Shown piece by piece: positions 17,631-25,560 of a DNA stretch of 41,532 bases (positions are counted from its first letter, which is position 1; every line of letters begins with the position of its first letter). A model generated the notes under the pieces. The model did not search any database and was not told the DNA's origin. It saw only the letters and a list, made by a program, of their open reading frames with translations. Source of the stretch: [Candidatus Thermochlorobacteriaceae] bacterium GBChlB (GTDB taxonomy: Bacteria > Bacteroidota > Chlorobiia > Chlorobiales > Thermochlorobacteraceae). The position numbers and the translations under genes were made by a program. The DNA is taken from assembly GCA_000724175.1 (NCBI GenBank), contig JPGV01000011.1, positions 1 through 41,532 on the forward strand. Reading direction: 5' to 3'.

Positions 17631-18389
17631 TTATTCCTCCCTGTTCTGAATGACGGTTTCCAAACGGTTTAATTCATGGCGCAACTGCTCGCGCACGTCG
17701 GCGGCAAACGGGTTGAACCGATGCAAGTCCAAAAGCAACTCCATTGAATCGTTGTAAGAAATCGTTTTCATTGCCAACAAGTGTCGGAAACTTTGCGCGT
17801 CAATCTCCGATGCGGCGATATTCATATTGCCCAACGCTCGACCCAAAAGCTGCGTCAAGCATAAACTCCGCGCCGTGATGCGGTCATGTGCTTCGGGCGT
17901 CAGTTCAACCACGCGGCAGCCTTTTCCCTTCGAGAAGTAATGTCGCCAAAACGCCACACGCTGTCGATACAGGTCGCTCTCGTCCGCGTTTGGACAAAGA
18001 ACCAAGGGCAAGTCGCGCCAGCCGTCTTTAGCCGAATCGGGTCCGAACATCGGGTGCAGCGGCAACGCATAGACGCCTTTCGGCAGGAGGCGCGCCAGTA
18101 CGCGCTCAGGGTGCAGCTTAACCGAGCAGACGTCCATGACCAGCGCACCGTCTTTGAAGTGCGGCACAGCGTTTTTGACGGCGGTTTCAAATGCGGCAAT
18201 CGGCACAGCGAAAAAGACCGCGTCGCGCGACGCAGCGTCAGCAAGTGAGGTTTGACCGTCAATCAACTCGATGTCGGCATATGCATCATACACGGCGACA
18301 TCGAACTCGCGGCGGAGTTCTTGAACAAGAAGTTTTCCGAAGCGACCGTAGCCAACAACGCCGACAGTCTTAAACAAGTCGTCTGTCAT
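17631..18389 (-). CDS. tyrA: prephenate/arogenate dehydrogenase
   Basis: A 252-residue protein starting with an NAD(P)-binding fold: VGVVGYGRFGKLLVQEL (GxGxxG). Further TyrA features are DVCSVK, the substrate-site segment LPLHPMFGPDSAKDGW with the conserved His, and a helical C-terminal dimerisation domain. It oxidatively decarboxylates prephenate (or arogenate) to the tyrosine precursor. Its start overlaps the stop of the trifunctional aromatic gene by 4 bases (ATGA), so both belong to the transcript governed by the leader at 20495-20614. There is no fused chorismate mutase or ACT domain; these are in the partner protein. Confidence 0.9.
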   Translation of the reverse strand: MTDDLFKTVGVVGYGRFGKLLVQELRREFDVAVYDAYADIELIDGQTSLADAASRDAVFFAVPIAAFETAVKNAVPHFKDGALVMDVCSVKLHPERVLARLLPKGVYALPLHPMFGPDSAKDGWRDLPLVLCPNADESDLYRQRVAFWRHYFSKGKGCRVVELTPEAHDRITARSLCLTQLLGRALGNMNIAASEIDAQSFRHLLAMKTISYNDSMELLLDLHRFNPFAADVREQLRHELNRLETVIQNREE

Positions 18390-20413
18390 TTCGCCGCTAC
18401 CATTTGACCGTCGAGCGTCTCCGACGAGACAATCGCCATTTGTGTTTTGAGCGATTCGCCGTGCAGTCGTTCAAACATTTCCGCAACGAATGCCGCATCG
18501 AGCCGCAGTTTTCCGCCAAGCGAAAGTCGGCGTTCCATGACTTCTTTCCAGCGCGCCGGCTGCAAGACATCGAGTTGATGGTGCCGTTTGTATTCGCCGA
18601 TGTCGCGCACAAGGTTGAGCCGCGCCGCCAAGAGTTCCAAAAATTCTTCATCGACTCGGTCTATCGCGCCGCGCAAGGCTTCCAAGCGATTGAGGTCGCT
18701 GTTCGAGAGTGCGTCGTCTTGTTGGGCTTGCCACGAGAGCGCGTTTAAGAGGTCGCCAAGTGCGCGCGGCGTGAGTTGCTGTTTGGCGTCCGTCCAAGCC
18801 TCATCGGGCGTTGGGTGAGATTCTATCATCAATCCGCCAGCGCCTAAATCGAGGCTCTTTTGAGCCACCGACGCGAGTTTGTCGCGCCGTCCGCAAATGT
18901 GGCTTGGGTCGCAGATGAGCGGCACGTGCGGCAAGCGTTCCCGAAATTGCATCGGGATTGACCACGTGGGCGCATTGCGCAGGTCGGATTTTTCGCCTGT
19001 GGCAAAACCGCGATGAATAGCGACAAGTTTTCGAACGCCCGCCAGCGCCAAGCGTTCAAAGGCGCCAATCCAAAGTTCTAAATCGGGGCTGATGGGATTT
19101 TTGACCATCACGCCAAGCGTTGTGCCTTTGACTGCGTCAGCGATTTCTTGCACGGAAAACGGATTGCCCGTTGTGCGTGCGCCAATCCAAACAATATCAA
19201 CGCCGTGCCGCAAACAGTCCTCGACATGTTGTGCATTGGCGACCTCCACTGCCGTCATCATGCCCGTTGCGGCTTTGGCGCGTTGAAGCCATTTGAGTCC
19301 CTCGACGCCTGCGCCTTCGAATCCGCCAGCGCGCGTGCGCGGCTTCCAAATGCCCGCCCGCAACACATTGACGCACCCTAACGATGAAATTTGCATCGCT
19401 GCGTCCCTTGTTTGCTTCTCGGTTTCTGCGCTGCATGGTCCGGCAATGATGATATAGTCTTTTGCAATTGGGCGCGGCGGCGCGGCAATCCACGCTTGCC
19501 ACGGCAGTGCATCGATGTGAATCGTCGTCGGTTGAAGGCGCGGTTTGGGTTTCGGCAATTCGCGGGCGCGCCCTAAGGCTTCCATATTTTTTTCGCCTGC
19601 TTGATATGTTCCGAACACGCGCAGTTCAAAGGTTCTCTCGGCAAGGTCTTTGATTGCGGCGTGGTAATCGGGCAGTTCTTCCCAAGTCATATCCAAGTGA
19701 ATCGTGTATTCGTAGGGCATGCCCAAAACAGGCAGCGATTGAATTTTCGTCAGATTGATGTGGTGCTGTTTGAGCGACAGCAGCGCATCTGCCAGACTGC
19801 CGCGCGCGTGTGAGACTCGAAACGAGACGGAGGCTTTGTTGCACAAGTCGTCAATCGGGTTCGGCGTGCGCGAGACAGCAAGAAAGCGCGTGAAGTTTTT
19901 CGGATTATTTTCCAAGCGCTCGGCGAGAATCTCCAAGTCATACAGTTCCGCCGCTGTGTATCCCGCAATCGCCGCCACGCCGCGCCGCTTTTCCGCGCTG
20001 ATTTTTTTTGCGATGCCGGCCGTATCGAAGGCTTCAACGACGCGGATGTGCGGATGCCTGTTCAAAAATTCCGAGCATTGAATAATTGCCATGGGGTGCG
20101 CCTCAACGGTCTGGATGTCGTCAATCGTTTGACCGCGCAGGGCAAGCAAGTTGTGCCGAATTTGCAAATAAGTTTCGCCGATAACAGAGAGATTATAGGT
20201 TTGAATGAGTGCATAGTTCGGCAGAATGCTGCCCGCGAGCGTGTTTTCAATCGCCATCATGCCCGCGTCGGCGCGCTTGGAATCGACCGCGTCGGCGAGC
20301 TGCTCAAAGGTCTCGCATTCCAAAAGTTGAAGCGGCGCATCGGCTGTTTCGAAGAACCGACGCGCGGCAATGTCGTGAAATGAACCTGCTACGCCTTGAA
20401 TTGCTACTTTCAT
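18386..20413 (-). CDS. trifunctional prephenate dehydratase / DAHP synthase / chorismate mutase
   Basis: The 675-residue protein joins three enzymes. Residues 1-185 are prephenate dehydratase: VAIQGVAGSFHDIAA at the start and the TRF motif in KNFTRFLAVSR. Residues about 195-270 are an ACT domain (HHINLTKIQSLPVLGMPYEY), the usual phenylalanine sensor. Residues about 310-575 are a type I-beta DAHP synthase: AGPCSAET, AGIWKPRTRAGGFEG, IGARTTGNPF, HRGF and CDPSHICGRRD. The last ~85 residues are an AroQ-type chorismate mutase (LEALRGAIDRVDEEFLELLA, KRHHQLDV, ERRL). It thus holds the first step of the shikimate route and both steps from chorismate to phenylpyruvate. Ribosome site AAGAGG lies 6 bases upstream. 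Confidence 0.92.
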   Translation of the reverse strand: MKVAIQGVAGSFHDIAARRFFETADAPLQLLECETFEQLADAVDSKRADAGMMAIENTLAGSILPNYALIQTYNLSVIGETYLQIRHNLLALRGQTIDDIQTVEAHPMAIIQCSEFLNRHPHIRVVEAFDTAGIAKKISAEKRRGVAAIAGYTAAELYDLEILAERLENNPKNFTRFLAVSRTPNPIDDLCNKASVSFRVSHARGSLADALLSLKQHHINLTKIQSLPVLGMPYEYTIHLDMTWEELPDYHAAIKDLAERTFELRVFGTYQAGEKNMEALGRARELPKPKPRLQPTTIHIDALPWQAWIAAPPRPIAKDYIIIAGPCSAETEKQTRDAAMQISSLGCVNVLRAGIWKPRTRAGGFEGAGVEGLKWLQRAKAATGMMTAVEVANAQHVEDCLRHGVDIVWIGARTTGNPFSVQEIADAVKGTTLGVMVKNPISPDLELWIGAFERLALAGVRKLVAIHRGFATGEKSDLRNAPTWSIPMQFRERLPHVPLICDPSHICGRRDKLASVAQKSLDLGAGGLMIESHPTPDEAWTDAKQQLTPRALGDLLNALSWQAQQDDALSNSDLNRLEALRGAIDRVDEEFLELLAARLNLVRDIGEYKRHHQLDVLQPARWKEVMERRLSLGGKLRLDAAFVAEMFERLHGESLKTQMAIVSSETLDGQMVAAK

Positions 20414-20436
20414 TTGTGCCTCTTGATAATGGTTGT

Positions 20437-20512
20437 AAAATAAAAATCCCGACGCGCGGTCGGGATTCGGTTGATAAATGTTTGAGAACCTTTTTCAACA
20501 CGTCCCGACCGC
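20437..20512 (-). terminator. attenuator: alternative antiterminator and terminator hairpins
   Basis: On the minus-strand RNA, segment 3-4 is a 9-bp hairpin (arms at 20459-20467 and 20445-20453, loop 5) followed by a U-rich tail (complement of 20437-20446), an intrinsic terminator 23 bases before the aromatic gene. An upstream segment at 20503-20512 (GCGGTCGGGA in the RNA) is an exact 10-base complement of 20456-20465, which includes the 5' arm of the terminator. The two pairings exclude each other. The upstream segment begins 10 bases after the last aromatic codon of the leader peptide, so a ribosome stalled on Phe or Tyr codons would favour the antiterminator. Confidence 0.85.
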
Positions 20513-20614
20513 TATCGGCGTAAAGTAAAAGTAGAAATAGCCAAAGAAGCCGAACCGCGTCGTTTGGTTCAGCGTAGCGAGGGGCGCAAAAGATGTCGGT
20601 GCATGCGTGTTCAT
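20495..20614 (-). CDS. aromatic-rich leader peptide controlling the Phe/Tyr operon
   Basis: A 39-codon reading frame begins with ATG at 20614 and ends with TGA at 20497-20495. Residues 21-31 read FGFFGYFYFYF: six Phe and three Tyr in eleven positions. It lies between moxR and the trifunctional aromatic gene, and its 3' end contributes to the antiterminator arm. This matches leader peptides of pheA-type attenuators, where ribosome stalling at low charged tRNA-Phe or tRNA-Tyr permits transcription. The ATG has no clear ribosome site. An in-frame GTG at 20641, 12 bases after AAGGAG, would add nine residues and is an alternative start. Confidence 0.85.
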   Translation of the reverse strand: MNTHAPTSFAPLATLNQTTRFGFFGYFYFYFTPIAVGTC

Positions 20615-20620
20615 AGTGCC

Positions 20621-20649
20621 AATGTAGGGTTTTCGCGACACAAAATCAA
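20621..20649 (-). promoter_or_regulatory. candidate promoter for the leader and aromatic operon
   Basis: On the minus strand, TTGATT (20649-20644) and TACATT (20626-20621) are separated by exactly 17 bases, resembling a sigma-70 -35/-10 pair. Transcription would begin near the leader ATG at 20614, making the message nearly leaderless. The FCB group often uses a different promoter consensus, so this is tentative; the transcript could equally come from moxR, whose stop is only 8 bases upstream of the -35 box. Confidence 0.4.
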
Positions 20650-20657
20650 GCATCTCC

Positions 20658-21671
20658 TTAGGCAAGTGGACTTTGCGGTTCGGGCAATTTGGCGATAAGT
20701 TCTCTGGTAACCGCGTCGGACGTGACTGCTTCAGCTTCGGCTTTGAAGTTCACAATGACTCGATGCCGAAGAACGGGAAATGCCATAGCGCGAATGTCGT
20801 CAAGCGTTACAGCGAATCGCCCATTGAGCAACGCGCGCGCTTTTGCGGTCAGAATCATCGCTTGTCCTGCCCTCGGTCCGGCGCCCCAGCCAACCCATTC
20901 TTTGACAAATGGCACGGTAGATGTTGCCGGACGAGTGGCGCGAACCAACTGCGCAGCGTATCGAACAAGCGGCTCGCTAATGGGTACATCCCTAACGATT
21001 TTTTGTAGACTCAAAATGTCTTCTGCCGCGATGACTGGCTCGACTCGAGTTTTCTTGCTGCCTGTTGTATTGGCGAGAACTTGAATCTCTTCGGCTTCGG
21101 TCGGATAGCCGATTTTGATGTAGAGCAGAAAGCGGTCGAGCTGTGCTTCGGGCAAGGGATAGGTGCCTGCTTGTTCAATCGGATTTTGTGTTGCCAAAAC
21201 GAAAAACGGTCGGTCGAGCTTATGCGTAACGCCGCCTTGGGTTACTTCAAATTCTTGCATCGCCTCGAGCAGGGCGGCTTGGGTTTTCGGCGGCGTGCGG
21301 TTGATTTCATCGGCAAGAACGATATTCGAGAAAATCGCACCTCTGTTGAATTTGAAAAAGCGCTTGCCCGTCGCGTGGTCTTCTTCCAGAATTTCCGTGC
21401 CGATGATGTCGGTCGGCATTAGGTCGGGCGTGAACTGAATGCGTCGGAACTGCAAGGTGACGGCATCGGCAAGGGTGCGAATCATCAACGTTTTGGCAAG
21501 TCCCGGCACGCCCTCCAAAAGACAGTGTCCGCCAGCAACGAACGTGGTAAGCAACTGCTCAATCGTGTCGTGCTGCCCGACGATGACCTTTTGGACTTCG
21601 CGTCGGAGTGCGGCAAGTTTTTCTAAGAGCCGCTCAATATCGGCTTCGGTGAGTTCTGCTGTATGTGTCAT
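20658..21671 (-). CDS. MoxR-family AAA+ ATPase
   Basis: The 337-residue protein has Walker A in LLEGVPGLAKTLMIRTLA (about residues 56-73), Walker B in NIVLADEINRTPPKTQAALL, and sensor and arginine-finger segments (LATQNPIEQAGTYPLPEAQLDRF). These are hallmarks of MoxR AAA+ chaperones, which help assemble metal-containing or VWA-domain complexes. It follows DUF4159 with a 29-base gap; MoxR and DUF4159 genes often sit together with DUF58 and VWA genes, which are missing here. Substrate unknown. Confidence 0.92.
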   Translation of the reverse strand: MTHTAELTEADIERLLEKLAALRREVQKVIVGQHDTIEQLLTTFVAGGHCLLEGVPGLAKTLMIRTLADAVTLQFRRIQFTPDLMPTDIIGTEILEEDHATGKRFFKFNRGAIFSNIVLADEINRTPPKTQAALLEAMQEFEVTQGGVTHKLDRPFFVLATQNPIEQAGTYPLPEAQLDRFLLYIKIGYPTEAEEIQVLANTTGSKKTRVEPVIAAEDILSLQKIVRDVPISEPLVRYAAQLVRATRPATSTVPFVKEWVGWGAGPRAGQAMILTAKARALLNGRFAVTLDDIRAMAFPVLRHRVIVNFKAEAEAVTSDAVTRELIAKLPEPQSPLA

Positions 21672-21700
21672 TGATTAAAAAATATCGCTGCGCGTCTGTT

Positions 21701-22417
21701 CTATGCCGTCATGGCATAAAGAATGATGTTGACACCAAACTTGGTATTGTCTTCGGCGAGCCAGCGCTTGTTGCGAAAATCGTAATCCCACTCGCAGCCG
21801 TAGTCTTTGTTGCTGTATAAAATTCCGATACGCCCCTTAATCTCGACGGCTTTGAGATAATCGTGAACAAGGTCGTCGCCCCAGCCGTTGAGTTCGAAGG
21901 CGGTTGTCGGCGGACCGTTCTCGAACTTGAAAAACGATTGGTAGAGCCGATGCGTGTTGGGAATTTTTTTGAGCGCGGTTTGCCCGAATATCGCCGCCAG
22001 TTGCGCTTCAAAAGATTTGGCGAAGAGACCGTCAATGTCGTGGTTACAATCGTCAACAAAAACGAACCCGCCATGGCGCACATACTTTTCAAAATTGTCG
22101 CGCTCTCTGGCGGTGAACTGCACGAGCTTGTGTCCGCTCAAATAACAAAACGGCGAGCCGAACAGCGCGGGACTATCAAGCGAGACGATTTTCTCACGCG
22201 TATCGACTTCAATAGTGGTGTACTCGATGAGCGAATTAAGCAGGTTGAACGGCATGCGTTGGTCGGTGTCCCAATTGCCCGATGCGTATTGCAGGCGCGT
22301 GAATGTAAAATCTTTTCGTCGATGCTCGAACGCCAAAGCCATCGCATTCGCCAAAGGCGAGAGCAAAGAAACAGCGCCGCTTGTCCATTTCAAAAAGTCT
22401 CGTCGAGTCATCTTCAT
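21701..22417 (-). CDS. DUF4159 protein with twin-arginine signal
   Basis: From the ATG at 22417 the product is about 238 residues: MKMTRRDFLKWTSG is a twin-arginine motif followed by a hydrophobic stretch (AVSLLSPLANAMALAF), so export is predicted. The mature part matches DUF4159: FTRLQYASGNWDTD, LLNSLIEYTTIEVD, GGFVFVDDCNHDIDG and a closing NIILYAMTA. This family has a flavodoxin-like fold of unknown function. An upstream in-frame ATG at 22462 would place 15 non-hydrophobic residues before the signal, so 22417 or 22411 is preferred. It lies between tldE and moxR. Confidence 0.85.
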   Translation of the reverse strand: MKMTRRDFLKWTSGAVSLLSPLANAMALAFEHRRKDFTFTRLQYASGNWDTDQRMPFNLLNSLIEYTTIEVDTREKIVSLDSPALFGSPFCYLSGHKLVQFTARERDNFEKYVRHGGFVFVDDCNHDIDGLFAKSFEAQLAAIFGQTALKKIPNTHRLYQSFFKFENGPPTTAFELNGWGDDLVHDYLKAVEIKGRIGILYSNKDYGCEWDYDFRNKRWLAEDNTKFGVNIILYAMTA

Positions 22418-22474
22418 CTCTGTGCCGAGTTGGCTGGTTGAACGGTCATCATATCTCCTCATTCCGAATGTAGA

Positions 22475-23803
22475 TTACACTGCGTCCGACAAACTTGTAA
22501 AGGTGAAGTCTCGGACTTTCATCGGCGGCACGAGGTTGCCAAGCATTCGCTGCGGTTTGCCCAGCGCCTCAATGTTGTTGAGCATAATCACCGGACTTTC
22601 GTTGAAGCGCAGATTTTTTACAGGGTGCTTAATTTTACCGTTCTCGATGAAGAATGTGCCGTCGCGCGTCAGTCCCGTGTAAAGCAAGGTTTGCGGGTCG
22701 ACTTCACGGATATACCATAGGCGCGAGACTAAAACACCGCGTTTGGTATCTTTAATCAGGTCTTCAATTGAGGCGTCGCCGCCTTGCATAATGAAGTTGG
22801 CGGGAGGCGGCACGGCTTTGACATTTTTTTTCTCTGCCCAATAGCGTGAGTAAAAGAGGTTCTTCACAACGCCGTTTTCAATCCACATGGTTTTTTCTTG
22901 CGGTCTGCCGTCGCTGCTCCATGTTTGAGCCGGCACATCGGGATGTTGCGGGTCGGAATAAATTGTAACGCGCTCATCGAACATCTTTTCGCCGAGTTTC
23001 GTCTTGCCGCCTTTTTTGGAGAGAAAACTTCTGCCTTCGTCGGCTTGGCGTGCGTCCATGCTGAAAATTAACTGGTTGAGTAGTCCCTCGTCGGAAACAA
23101 GCGCAGAGGGTTCGAGAATGACGGTGTATTTGCCCGGTTCAATTGCTTTTGGCTCACGCGATTGAAGCGCTTTGTCAATCGCGATTTGCGAGGCAAGCAC
23201 GGCGTCGAATTTCTCGGCGTCATTGACATCGCGATACACATAACCTGAACCTGTGCCATCGTTGCTGCGCACCGTCAGATTAAACTCAATATCGCTTGAG
23301 ACTTGATACGCTGCGGCGCCCGATGTATTCGCCATCGCTTGAAAGCGCTCGCTGCTCTGAAAAAATCCTGCTGCCGTCAAATTGCCGTTTTTCTTACACG
23401 GCTCAATGCCCGCTGCTGCCACTTTGGCGCGATACGCCGCTGTGATGTTCGCCGTCGATTCAAAGTACGTTGTTGACGTCAGATATGTTTGCTTGCCGAG
23501 ATTTTTGACAAACTCTGGATTTTCGGGGGCAAGCGTTGCCAACTCTTCGGCGCGGCGCACGGCTCTTTCAATCCCTGCATCCGTCAGCTCGTTGGTTGTA
23601 GCCGAGCCAACGCGCTTGCCGAATGACGATTGAATGACAAGTGAAACACTTTGCTGAGAGCCGCTGGTCGTAATCGTATTTCGTGCGTAGCGAATGTTGC
23701 CGCTTTTGATGCCGCTCAAATTAGCTTCGCACTCATCTGCTTTGGAAAACGACAGTGCTTTCTCCAAAATGCGTTTGGCTTCTGCTTCAGTTAAAATGGC
23801 CAT
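22475..23803 (-). CDS. pmbA: TldE/PmbA-family protein
   Basis: A 442-residue member of the TldD/PmbA family: an N-terminal alpha/beta domain (EAEAKRILEKALSFSKADEC, SVSLVIQSSFGKRVGSATTN) and a C-terminal beta-rich domain with FSMDARQADEGRSFLSKKGG. The HExxxH metal motif of TldD is absent, as expected for the TldE partner. TldD/TldE heterodimers degrade small unfolded or modified peptides. It starts 12 bases after the tldD stop. It has no signal peptide, whereas its TldD partner has a twin-arginine one. Confidence 0.85.
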   Translation of the reverse strand: MAILTEAEAKRILEKALSFSKADECEANLSGIKSGNIRYARNTITTSGSQQSVSLVIQSSFGKRVGSATTNELTDAGIERAVRRAEELATLAPENPEFVKNLGKQTYLTSTTYFESTANITAAYRAKVAAAGIEPCKKNGNLTAAGFFQSSERFQAMANTSGAAAYQVSSDIEFNLTVRSNDGTGSGYVYRDVNDAEKFDAVLASQIAIDKALQSREPKAIEPGKYTVILEPSALVSDEGLLNQLIFSMDARQADEGRSFLSKKGGKTKLGEKMFDERVTIYSDPQHPDVPAQTWSSDGRPQEKTMWIENGVVKNLFYSRYWAEKKNVKAVPPPANFIMQGGDASIEDLIKDTKRGVLVSRLWYIREVDPQTLLYTGLTRDGTFFIENGKIKHPVKNLRFNESPVIMLNNIEALGKPQRMLGNLVPPMKVRDFTFTSLSDAV

Positions 23804-23815
23804 TGGAATTGAGAA

Positions 23816-25441
23816 TTAGATTTTTCGGTCGGTATTGATGACCGTAACGCCGTTAAAGCGCGCCGTGGCGCTGCCGTGCGAGACCGCGCTGACTTGTCCG
23901 GGCTGACCTTTGCCATCGAAGAAACTGCCTCCCAATCGATAGTCGCGCTCATCACAAATCGCCACGCACGAGTTCCAAAATTCCTGTGTGTTGGATTGAT
24001 ACGCCACATCTTTGAGCATCCCGACGATTTTGCCGTTCTTGATTTCGTAGAACAACTGCCCACCGAATTGAAAATTGTAACGCTGTTGGTCAATGGAATA
24101 CGAACCGTCGCCGATGATGTAAATACCTTTCTCGACGTCTTTAATCATGTCCATCGGCGTCAGTGGCTTCGAGCCTGCGGCGAGCGAAACGTTCGGCATG
24201 CGTTGAAACTGCACATCAGCCCAACTTTGCGCGTAGCAACAGCCGTGCGACTCTTGTTGGTCGATGAGCTGCACTTGGTCGCGAATCGCTTGATAATTGA
24301 CCAGAATGCCGTCCTTGATTAAATCCCACCGTTTGGTCGGCACGCCCTCATCGTCGTAGCCGACCGCGCCAAGCGAGTGCGGCTGCAACTTATCGGCGAA
24401 GAGCGTTACAATCGGCGAGCCGTATTTGAACGATTTTGATTTCCACTTCTCGAGCGTGGCGAAACTCGTTCCCGCATAGTTGGCTTCGTAGCCCAAGACG
24501 CGGTCAAGCTCGGTCGGATGTCCGACCGATTCGTGAATCGTGAGCCAAAGGTGCGACGGATCGAGCACCAAGTCATACTTACCCGCCGCGACAGATTTTG
24601 CGGTGAGTTTTCGTTTGCCTTCTTTGCCTGCGTTGGCGGCGTCTTCAATCATATCGTAGCTGTTGCGATAGACGGTCGTTTCGCCTTTCATTTTTTCCGA
24701 CGCTTTGCCGTCGAGGTATTCATACCCCATACCCATTGGCGCAGAAAGCGATTGTCGGTTCTGAAACTTGCCACTTTTTGAATCGATGACAGTGGCTTGA
24801 AACGTCGGCCATATCCGATGAATATCTTGGTCGATGTAAGAGCCATCGCTCGACGCGAAATACTTTTGTTCGTTGACGAAAAAGAGAACAGAGTTGATAT
24901 AAGTCGCGCCGTTTTTCATTGCTGCCGCGTTTGCCGCCAAGAGCAAATCGGCTTTGTCTTTAATTGGAATGTTGAAAGCATTTTTTTCAATTGGCGTTTT
25001 CCAAGTTTGTTCGCCGACGCCCTGTTGCGGCGCAAGTTTGACGGGTTCGGTTTGATAGACGGCGTTGGCGTTGGCAATCGCAACAGCTTCTGCGGCGGCT
25101 TTAGCGACACTATCGGGCGAAAGGTCATCGGTTGAGGCAAAGCCCCAAGTGCCATTGGCAATGACGCGAATGCCGACGCCCATCGAGAGCGTATCGACGA
25201 CATTCTGCACTTTGTTTTCGCGTGCAAACACATACTGATTCAGGTATCGCCCGATGCGGACATCACAGTAGGTTGCGCCTTTGGCGTTTGCCGCATTGAG
25301 CGCAATGTCGGCAAGTTTCTTTTTGTCTGCCGTGTCCATCACTGCTGCATCAAGCGAGGCTGGATGAACGACGCCAACGGTCGGCAACATCATGGCGCCG
25401 AGTCCCAAACCAGTGAGTTTCAGAAAGTCACGTCGGTGCAT
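23816..25441 (-). CDS. tldD: TldD metalloprotease with twin-arginine signal
   Basis: From the ATG at 25441 (MHRRDFLKLTGLGLGAMML) the product is 541 residues. The RRDFLK motif and hydrophobic core predict Tat export. The catalytic HExxxH motif is HESVGHPTELDRVLG in the middle of the protein; the last third includes SHGCCYAQSWADVQFQRMPN and the closing ATARFNGVTV. An upstream in-frame ATG (25471) would bury the twin-arginine motif further in and is less likely. It forms a pair with tldE. The 119-base gap between it and yajC has no convincing gene. Confidence 0.9.
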   Translation of the reverse strand: MHRRDFLKLTGLGLGAMMLPTVGVVHPASLDAAVMDTADKKKLADIALNAANAKGATYCDVRIGRYLNQYVFARENKVQNVVDTLSMGVGIRVIANGTWGFASTDDLSPDSVAKAAAEAVAIANANAVYQTEPVKLAPQQGVGEQTWKTPIEKNAFNIPIKDKADLLLAANAAAMKNGATYINSVLFFVNEQKYFASSDGSYIDQDIHRIWPTFQATVIDSKSGKFQNRQSLSAPMGMGYEYLDGKASEKMKGETTVYRNSYDMIEDAANAGKEGKRKLTAKSVAAGKYDLVLDPSHLWLTIHESVGHPTELDRVLGYEANYAGTSFATLEKWKSKSFKYGSPIVTLFADKLQPHSLGAVGYDDEGVPTKRWDLIKDGILVNYQAIRDQVQLIDQQESHGCCYAQSWADVQFQRMPNVSLAAGSKPLTPMDMIKDVEKGIYIIGDGSYSIDQQRYNFQFGGQLFYEIKNGKIVGMLKDVAYQSNTQEFWNSCVAICDERDYRLGGSFFDGKGQPGQVSAVSHGSATARFNGVTVINTDRKI

Positions 25442-25560
25442 ACGCTTGTATTGAGAAGTTGAAAATACCAAAGCTGGTCGGCGTTTGTCGCCCTTGCGGT
25501 ATGGTCAGACAGTCGTGCCGTCCGAAAAGTCGATGACAAGAAACCGGCGGCGCACTGGCG

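Follow-up and report, generated by a model that had tools for sequence, protein, structure and literature searches.

A probable phenylalanine/tyrosine leader-peptide attenuator ahead of a fused aromatic amino acid biosynthesis gene

In the pheL–pheA system of Escherichia coli, a leader peptide that abounds in the amino acid made by the pathway is encoded ahead of a terminator that precedes the biosynthetic gene, and the leader analyzed here, which lies in a 41.5-kb stretch of DNA (the window), is arranged in the same way. In pheL, some 11 nt separate the last Phe codon from the start of the antiterminator strand, similar to the 12 nt in the window leader, but the aromatic codons of pheL all encode Phe and its 1:2 protector is strong, whereas in the window leader Phe and Tyr codons alternate, the antiterminator strand lies inside the open reading frame (ORF), and ribosome-free RNA is predicted to favor antitermination. 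The comparative study by Vitreschak and colleagues from 2004 reportedly listed some amino acid attenuators for Bacteroidetes/Chlorobi. According to a survey from 2010, leader peptides had been known from Proteobacteria and Actinobacteria only, and Firmicutes were then added (PMC2965389). The ilvBNC attenuator of Corynebacterium glutamicum resembles the window leader in sensing several products at once (PMC11857589), and in this system and in trpL of Sinorhizobium the leader is translated at or near the transcript start, as we propose here (PMC11857589; PMC7298713); both differ from the window leader in their amino acids and genes, and ilvBNC has been argued to use three hairpins. The uORFC-13-1 motif before aroF of Acholeplasma (PMC8632094) shares with the window leader an upstream ORF and a terminator ahead of an aromatic-pathway gene, but it comes from a different phylum, and the likeness considered here is one of arrangement.

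Closer in phylogenetic terms, a structured 5′ region without an Rfam match has been reported before pheA in Flavobacterium psychrophilum and other Flavobacteriaceae, together with clues of leader-peptide attenuation ahead of amino acid operons (PMC9723704). The main text of that study treats one family, gives no detail on codons, arms or mechanism and does not mention Chlorobia or Tyr sensing; the pheA element is very probably the same Bacteroidota element as the one described below. In our own searches, no leader family of Rfam 15, including the Phe leader and the T-box, gave a covariance-model match at gathering score in the window or in 19 loci, and a permissive Rfam search returned nothing credible. 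The kind of attenuator is textbook, and what differs is the dual Phe/Tyr run, the antiterminator strand within the ORF, and the lack of a strong protector.

The leader, its hairpins and the operon

The leader peptide ORF comprises 39 codons on the minus strand (20614-20495, with ATG 20614-20612 and stop TGA 20497-20495; MNTHAPTSFAPLATLNQTTRFGFFGYFYFYFTPIAVGTC), lies directly 5′ of the biosynthetic operon, and has Phe/Tyr leaders as counterparts at the same place in relatives. Its presumed control codons, FGFFGYFYFYF (20554-20522, minus strand), contain six Phe and three Tyr among 11 codons, an enrichment in codons for the end products that is typical of trp/phe-type attenuators, and are unique in the genome. 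Nine aromatic codons out of 11 occur once in the six frames of the window, and all window stretches with at least seven out of 11 are part of this run. Six consecutive Phe/Tyr codons are found exactly once in the 3,053,370-base genome, compared with 10 occurrences of the reversed control pattern. Since the run is unique in the window and the six-codon pattern is single in the genome, it cannot be attributed to chance. Seven-codon Phe/Tyr runs in two other members of the window genome's family were considered and rejected as leaders.

Between the ORF and the first gene, as expected for an attenuator of this type, lies an intrinsic terminator hairpin, GAATCCCGAC-CGCGC-GTCGGGATTT (20468-20444, minus strand), whose stem (20468-20459 / 20453-20444) has 10 pairs, one of them G-U, and which is followed by the U-rich tail TTATTTTA (20436..20443, minus strand), as read from the sequence. 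The 5′ strand of the antiterminator, GCGGTCGGGA (20512-20503, minus strand), is situated inside the ORF and is the exact reverse complement of the 3′ strand TCCCGACCGC (20465-20456, minus strand), which overlaps the terminator 5′ arm. The original prediction had named the 39-codon frame with nine aromatic residues in 11, the terminator with its U-rich tail, and the 10-base complementarity overlapping the terminator 5′ arm; the frame and the complementarity were recovered to the base and the terminator was borne out, with its stem now read as the 10 pairs given above. GCGGTCGGGA begins 12 nt downstream of the position where the last Phe codon starts, and its end lies 5 nt short of the stop codon. 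The pairing of the leader with the terminator arm has an energy of −22.8 kcal/mol, which two out of 1000 shuffled versions of the leader segment also reached and which ranks among the strongest of the leader set, and the RNA from 20437 to 20614 folds with z = −4.0 against 200 dinucleotide shuffles.

The regulated gene (18386..20413, minus strand) follows the terminator hairpin at a distance of 30 bases and encodes a fused prephenate dehydratase (PDT)–DAHP synthase–chorismate mutase of 675 aa (Pfam PF00800, PF00793, PF01817). It overlaps by 4 bases with the second operon gene, a tyrA-like prephenate dehydrogenase (17631..18389, minus strand; PF02153), and with this combination of enzymes the operon serves both Phe and Tyr. 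As no separate PDT gene was found in the window genome, the three-domain fusion may have taken the place of the native gene. No Trp or His leader or attenuator was seen 5′ of trpE and hisG of the window genome, which we counted against the attenuator reading. Upstream on the same strand, the region 20658-25471 encodes two TldD/PmbA proteases, a DUF4159 protein and a MoxR-type ATPase. The FMO bacteriochlorophyll protein family is present in the window genome, in 95 of the 98 genomes of its class and in none of 14 named controls, and by this marker the genome would belong to a green sulfur bacterium lineage (Chlorobia).

A putative promoter (20619..20649, minus strand) consists of TTGATT (20649-20644), 17 nt, and TACATT(GG) (20626-20619). 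Its −7 element TACATTGG matches the Bacteroidota element TAnnTTTG at five of six positions and ends 4 nt 5′ of the leader ATG; the promoter scores below the threshold of a sigma-70 scan, and exact TAnnTTTG elements are found 7-34 nt 5′ of the ATG in leaders of several relatives. Transcription would then begin at or next to the ATG, and the leader transcript would be leaderless or nearly so. The start had been left open between ATG 20614 and the in-frame GTG 20641; because ATG 20614 follows the Bacteroidota-like −7 element by 4 nt, it is likelier to be the start, and GTG 20641 is the less probable alternative. There is no clear ribosome-binding site at the ATG, which, like the uncertain leader start, counts against the attenuator reading. 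Several Chitinophaga (loci L102-L109) carry a further terminator-like hairpin, with a T-run, directly 5′ of the leader ATG, so that the promoter there must occupy a very short space or sit upstream of the hairpin.

Related leaders and their co-changing arms

The group to which we compare the window leader, Bacteroidota Phe/Tyr leaders before PDT operons, was assembled in the present analysis, and the window leader has its traits: a run with both Phe and Tyr, a spacing of 9-18 nt from its last aromatic codon to the antiterminator strand, and a terminator ahead of the gene. Leaders rich in Phe and Tyr precede separate PDT genes in 20 of 20 sampled Bacteroidota loci from several families, these loci being the best-scoring matches and not a random sample, and in nine of nine Chitinophaga; in Ca. 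Avirikenella, such a leader was looked for and none was seen. All 32 leaders contain both codons (173 Phe and 125 Tyr), in agreement with the expectation that these codons would be conserved, and 10 Trp codons are spread over 10 of the 32. A different PDT-fused protein (about 33% identical), found in eight Bacteroidota genomes, was rejected as it has no comparable leader. At one locus (L088, genome G222), two successive short ORFs rich in Phe and Tyr, with the motifs RFYFSYYFYY and FFYYGYYYFFF, lie 344-403 and 168-248 bases 5′ of PDT, before one operon, and are possibly a tandem attenuator.

The related leaders have a segment 3′ of their aromatic codons that pairs with the 5′ arm of their own terminator. 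After removal of near-duplicates, the pairings of own arms summed to −420.8 kcal/mol, compared with a mean of −286.6 (sd 13.8) for permuted arms, and none of 50,000 permutations was as good; for this pairing, the co-change of arms across relatives that had been proposed as a check is indeed found. Counted from the first base of the final aromatic codon, the distance to the antiterminator helix is 9-18 nt (mean 13.7, sd 2.5), whereas shuffles gave 27 ± 16. The spacing of roughly 14 nt from the last control codon to the antiterminator resembles a ruler of the ribosome's leading edge. Since a ribosome usually covers about 15 nt between its P-site and its leading edge, one that stalls on the last Phe codon of the window leader would just free 20512, and a stop-bound one would cover 20512-20503. 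Within the leader set, the stop codon precedes the antiterminator start by as much as 9 nt or follows it by up to 31 nt. In eight relatives it lies more than 20 nt past this start, where a stop-bound ribosome would not fully cover the strand, which counts against the attenuator reading; in some relatives with distant stop codons, blocking of the strand would need a moving, not a terminating, ribosome.

Predicted switching and the missing protector

The folding calculations are consistent with two mutually exclusive states. With a simulated stalled ribosome, equilibrium folding of the window leader gave a probability of 0.98 for the antiterminator, and the terminator formed when only the RNA beyond a stop-bound ribosome was exposed, i.e., the computed antiterminator is freed at the control codons and covered at the stop. 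As folding to the full-length MFE often kept the terminator under stalling even for E. coli pheL, the stalling test was applied to RNA that does not yet contain the terminator 3′ arm. Run through the same pipeline as a control, pheL showed its textbook behavior, with the antiterminator strand at +11.

From these features, we infer translation of the ORF, stalling, and termination in vivo, together with the start site and the default state. Shortage of Phe or Tyr would stall the ribosome in the run at 20554-20522 with its leading edge short of 20512, GCGGTCGGGA would pair with TCCCGACCGC once the latter is transcribed, no terminator would form, and the operon would be transcribed. When both amino acids are ample, the ribosome would reach the stop at 20497 and cover 20512-20503, the terminator at 20468-20444 would form, and transcription would end near 20436. 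Since there is no strong 1:2 protector, a ribosome stalled anywhere upstream, or absent, should likewise give read-through, and the leader would therefore act as an OR gate for Phe or Tyr shortage. We put the probability at about 90% that the element is a leader-peptide transcription attenuator that senses the charging of tRNA-Phe and tRNA-Tyr and controls the fused gene plus tyrA, a reading that draws on sequence and its conservation; with relatives across the Bacteroidota arranged alike, a ribosome-driven on/off switch that belongs to a known type and senses two amino acids at once is almost certain.

The default state is the point at which another reading has to be weighed, namely a classical pheA-type attenuator whose 1:2 protector is weak or was missed here and whose untranslated RNA would terminate by default. 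As long as the terminator 5′ arm has not been transcribed, the antiterminator strand does pair upstream (0.70 in the window leader, 0.3-1.0 in relatives), this upstream pairing is still favored in three relatives (L045, L078 and L081) once the arm exists, and the full-length MFE of most relatives combines it with the terminator. However, the full-length MFE of the window leader is the antiterminator, and ribosome-free window RNA reached an antiterminator probability of 0.98, compared with 0.00 when E. coli pheL was treated in the same way, an equilibrium prediction that kinetics could overturn; 18 of 22 relatives reached at least 0.79. We consider a classical protector rather unlikely on these grounds. 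The remark in the original prediction that no strong segment 1:2 pairing could be found holds: the window leader lacks the strong protector of the E. coli-type three-hairpin form, and according to our models most of the leader group seems to share this trait.

A possible history of the fused gene and its leader

Among the genomes searched, the three-domain fusion was found in the window genome, in G095 of the same family (59%), and in G310, G304 and G353, all three of which belong to another lineage, f48 (62%). In a DAHP synthase/chorismate mutase tree, the five fusions form one clade (support 100/100), within which the window genome (G000) and G095 are grouped (96/89) beside f48. A Phe/Tyr leader precedes the fused gene in two of the three f48 genomes: clearly in G310, whose leader ends in SSYGFFFYGFFVFYFYGKSAGLLMP and has its own antiterminator and terminator, and in G304, where leader and terminator lie ahead of an intervening gene. 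The degenerate aromatic run of G353 counts against the attenuator reading, as does the lack of such a leader in G095, the closest fused-gene relative. No Phe/Tyr leader was found 5′ of native Chlorobia PDT genes in 28 loci scanned, nor at the native PDT loci of the window genome's own family, and within Chlorobia the leader was seen in the window genome alone among the loci examined. In a further genome (G352, locus L096), a short ORF with SFYFYGFAF lies about 370-530 bases 5′ of a different PDT-fused gene (36% identical to that of the window) and is possibly an independent aromatic leader.

The original prediction had taken relatives that keep the operon without the leader as evidence against it; G095 is in part such a case, but more distant relatives retain the leader, and for this reason its loss from G095 seems likelier than a false call of the window leader. 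In the simplest history, the window's family would have received the fused gene and its leader from a Bacteroidota-like source, with later loss of the leader in G095. The patchy occurrence in the class, the lack of a leader at the sister gene in G095 and the degenerate run of G353 would also fit a decayed remnant, brought in by lateral transfer of the operon and now without function in this green sulfur bacterium; this is very improbable, as the 9/11 run, the 10-base exact match and the terminator are all intact in the window genome, with a pairing among the strongest of the set. Still less credible is a functional small hydrophobic peptide, or a terminator that merely ends the MoxR-gene transcript, with an incidental antiterminator match: the terminator lies less than 200 nt from the end of the same-strand MoxR-type gene and could also end the transcript of these upstream genes, but peptide tails vary among species while the RNA stays complementary to the local terminator, the leader accompanies PDT in distantly related genomes, and the distance from the last aromatic codon to the antiterminator is constrained.

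The Phe/Tyr attenuator originally proposed is supported by these comparisons, as leader, antiterminator and terminator precede orthologous genes in several Bacteroidota families and their arms co-change. A broader model, which we put forward tentatively and at somewhat under even odds, is that of a phylum-wide Bacteroidota family in which the ribosome alone blocks antitermination, an untranslated leader reads through, and stalling at Phe/Tyr codons (with Trp in about one third) activates the operon; the switch would have moved with the three-domain fusion into a green sulfur bacterium, where its translation would be leaderless.

Leader-peptide attenuation of aromatic amino acid synthesis appears to be a common design in Bacteroidota, beyond the Proteobacteria, and a mixed Phe/Tyr run is present in 32 of 32 leaders, yet there is no Rfam family by which they could be annotated. 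The missing protector predicts that the operon would be on when the leader is not translated, and the window locus would provide an example of a cis-switch that was retained together with a gene that appears foreign to its class.
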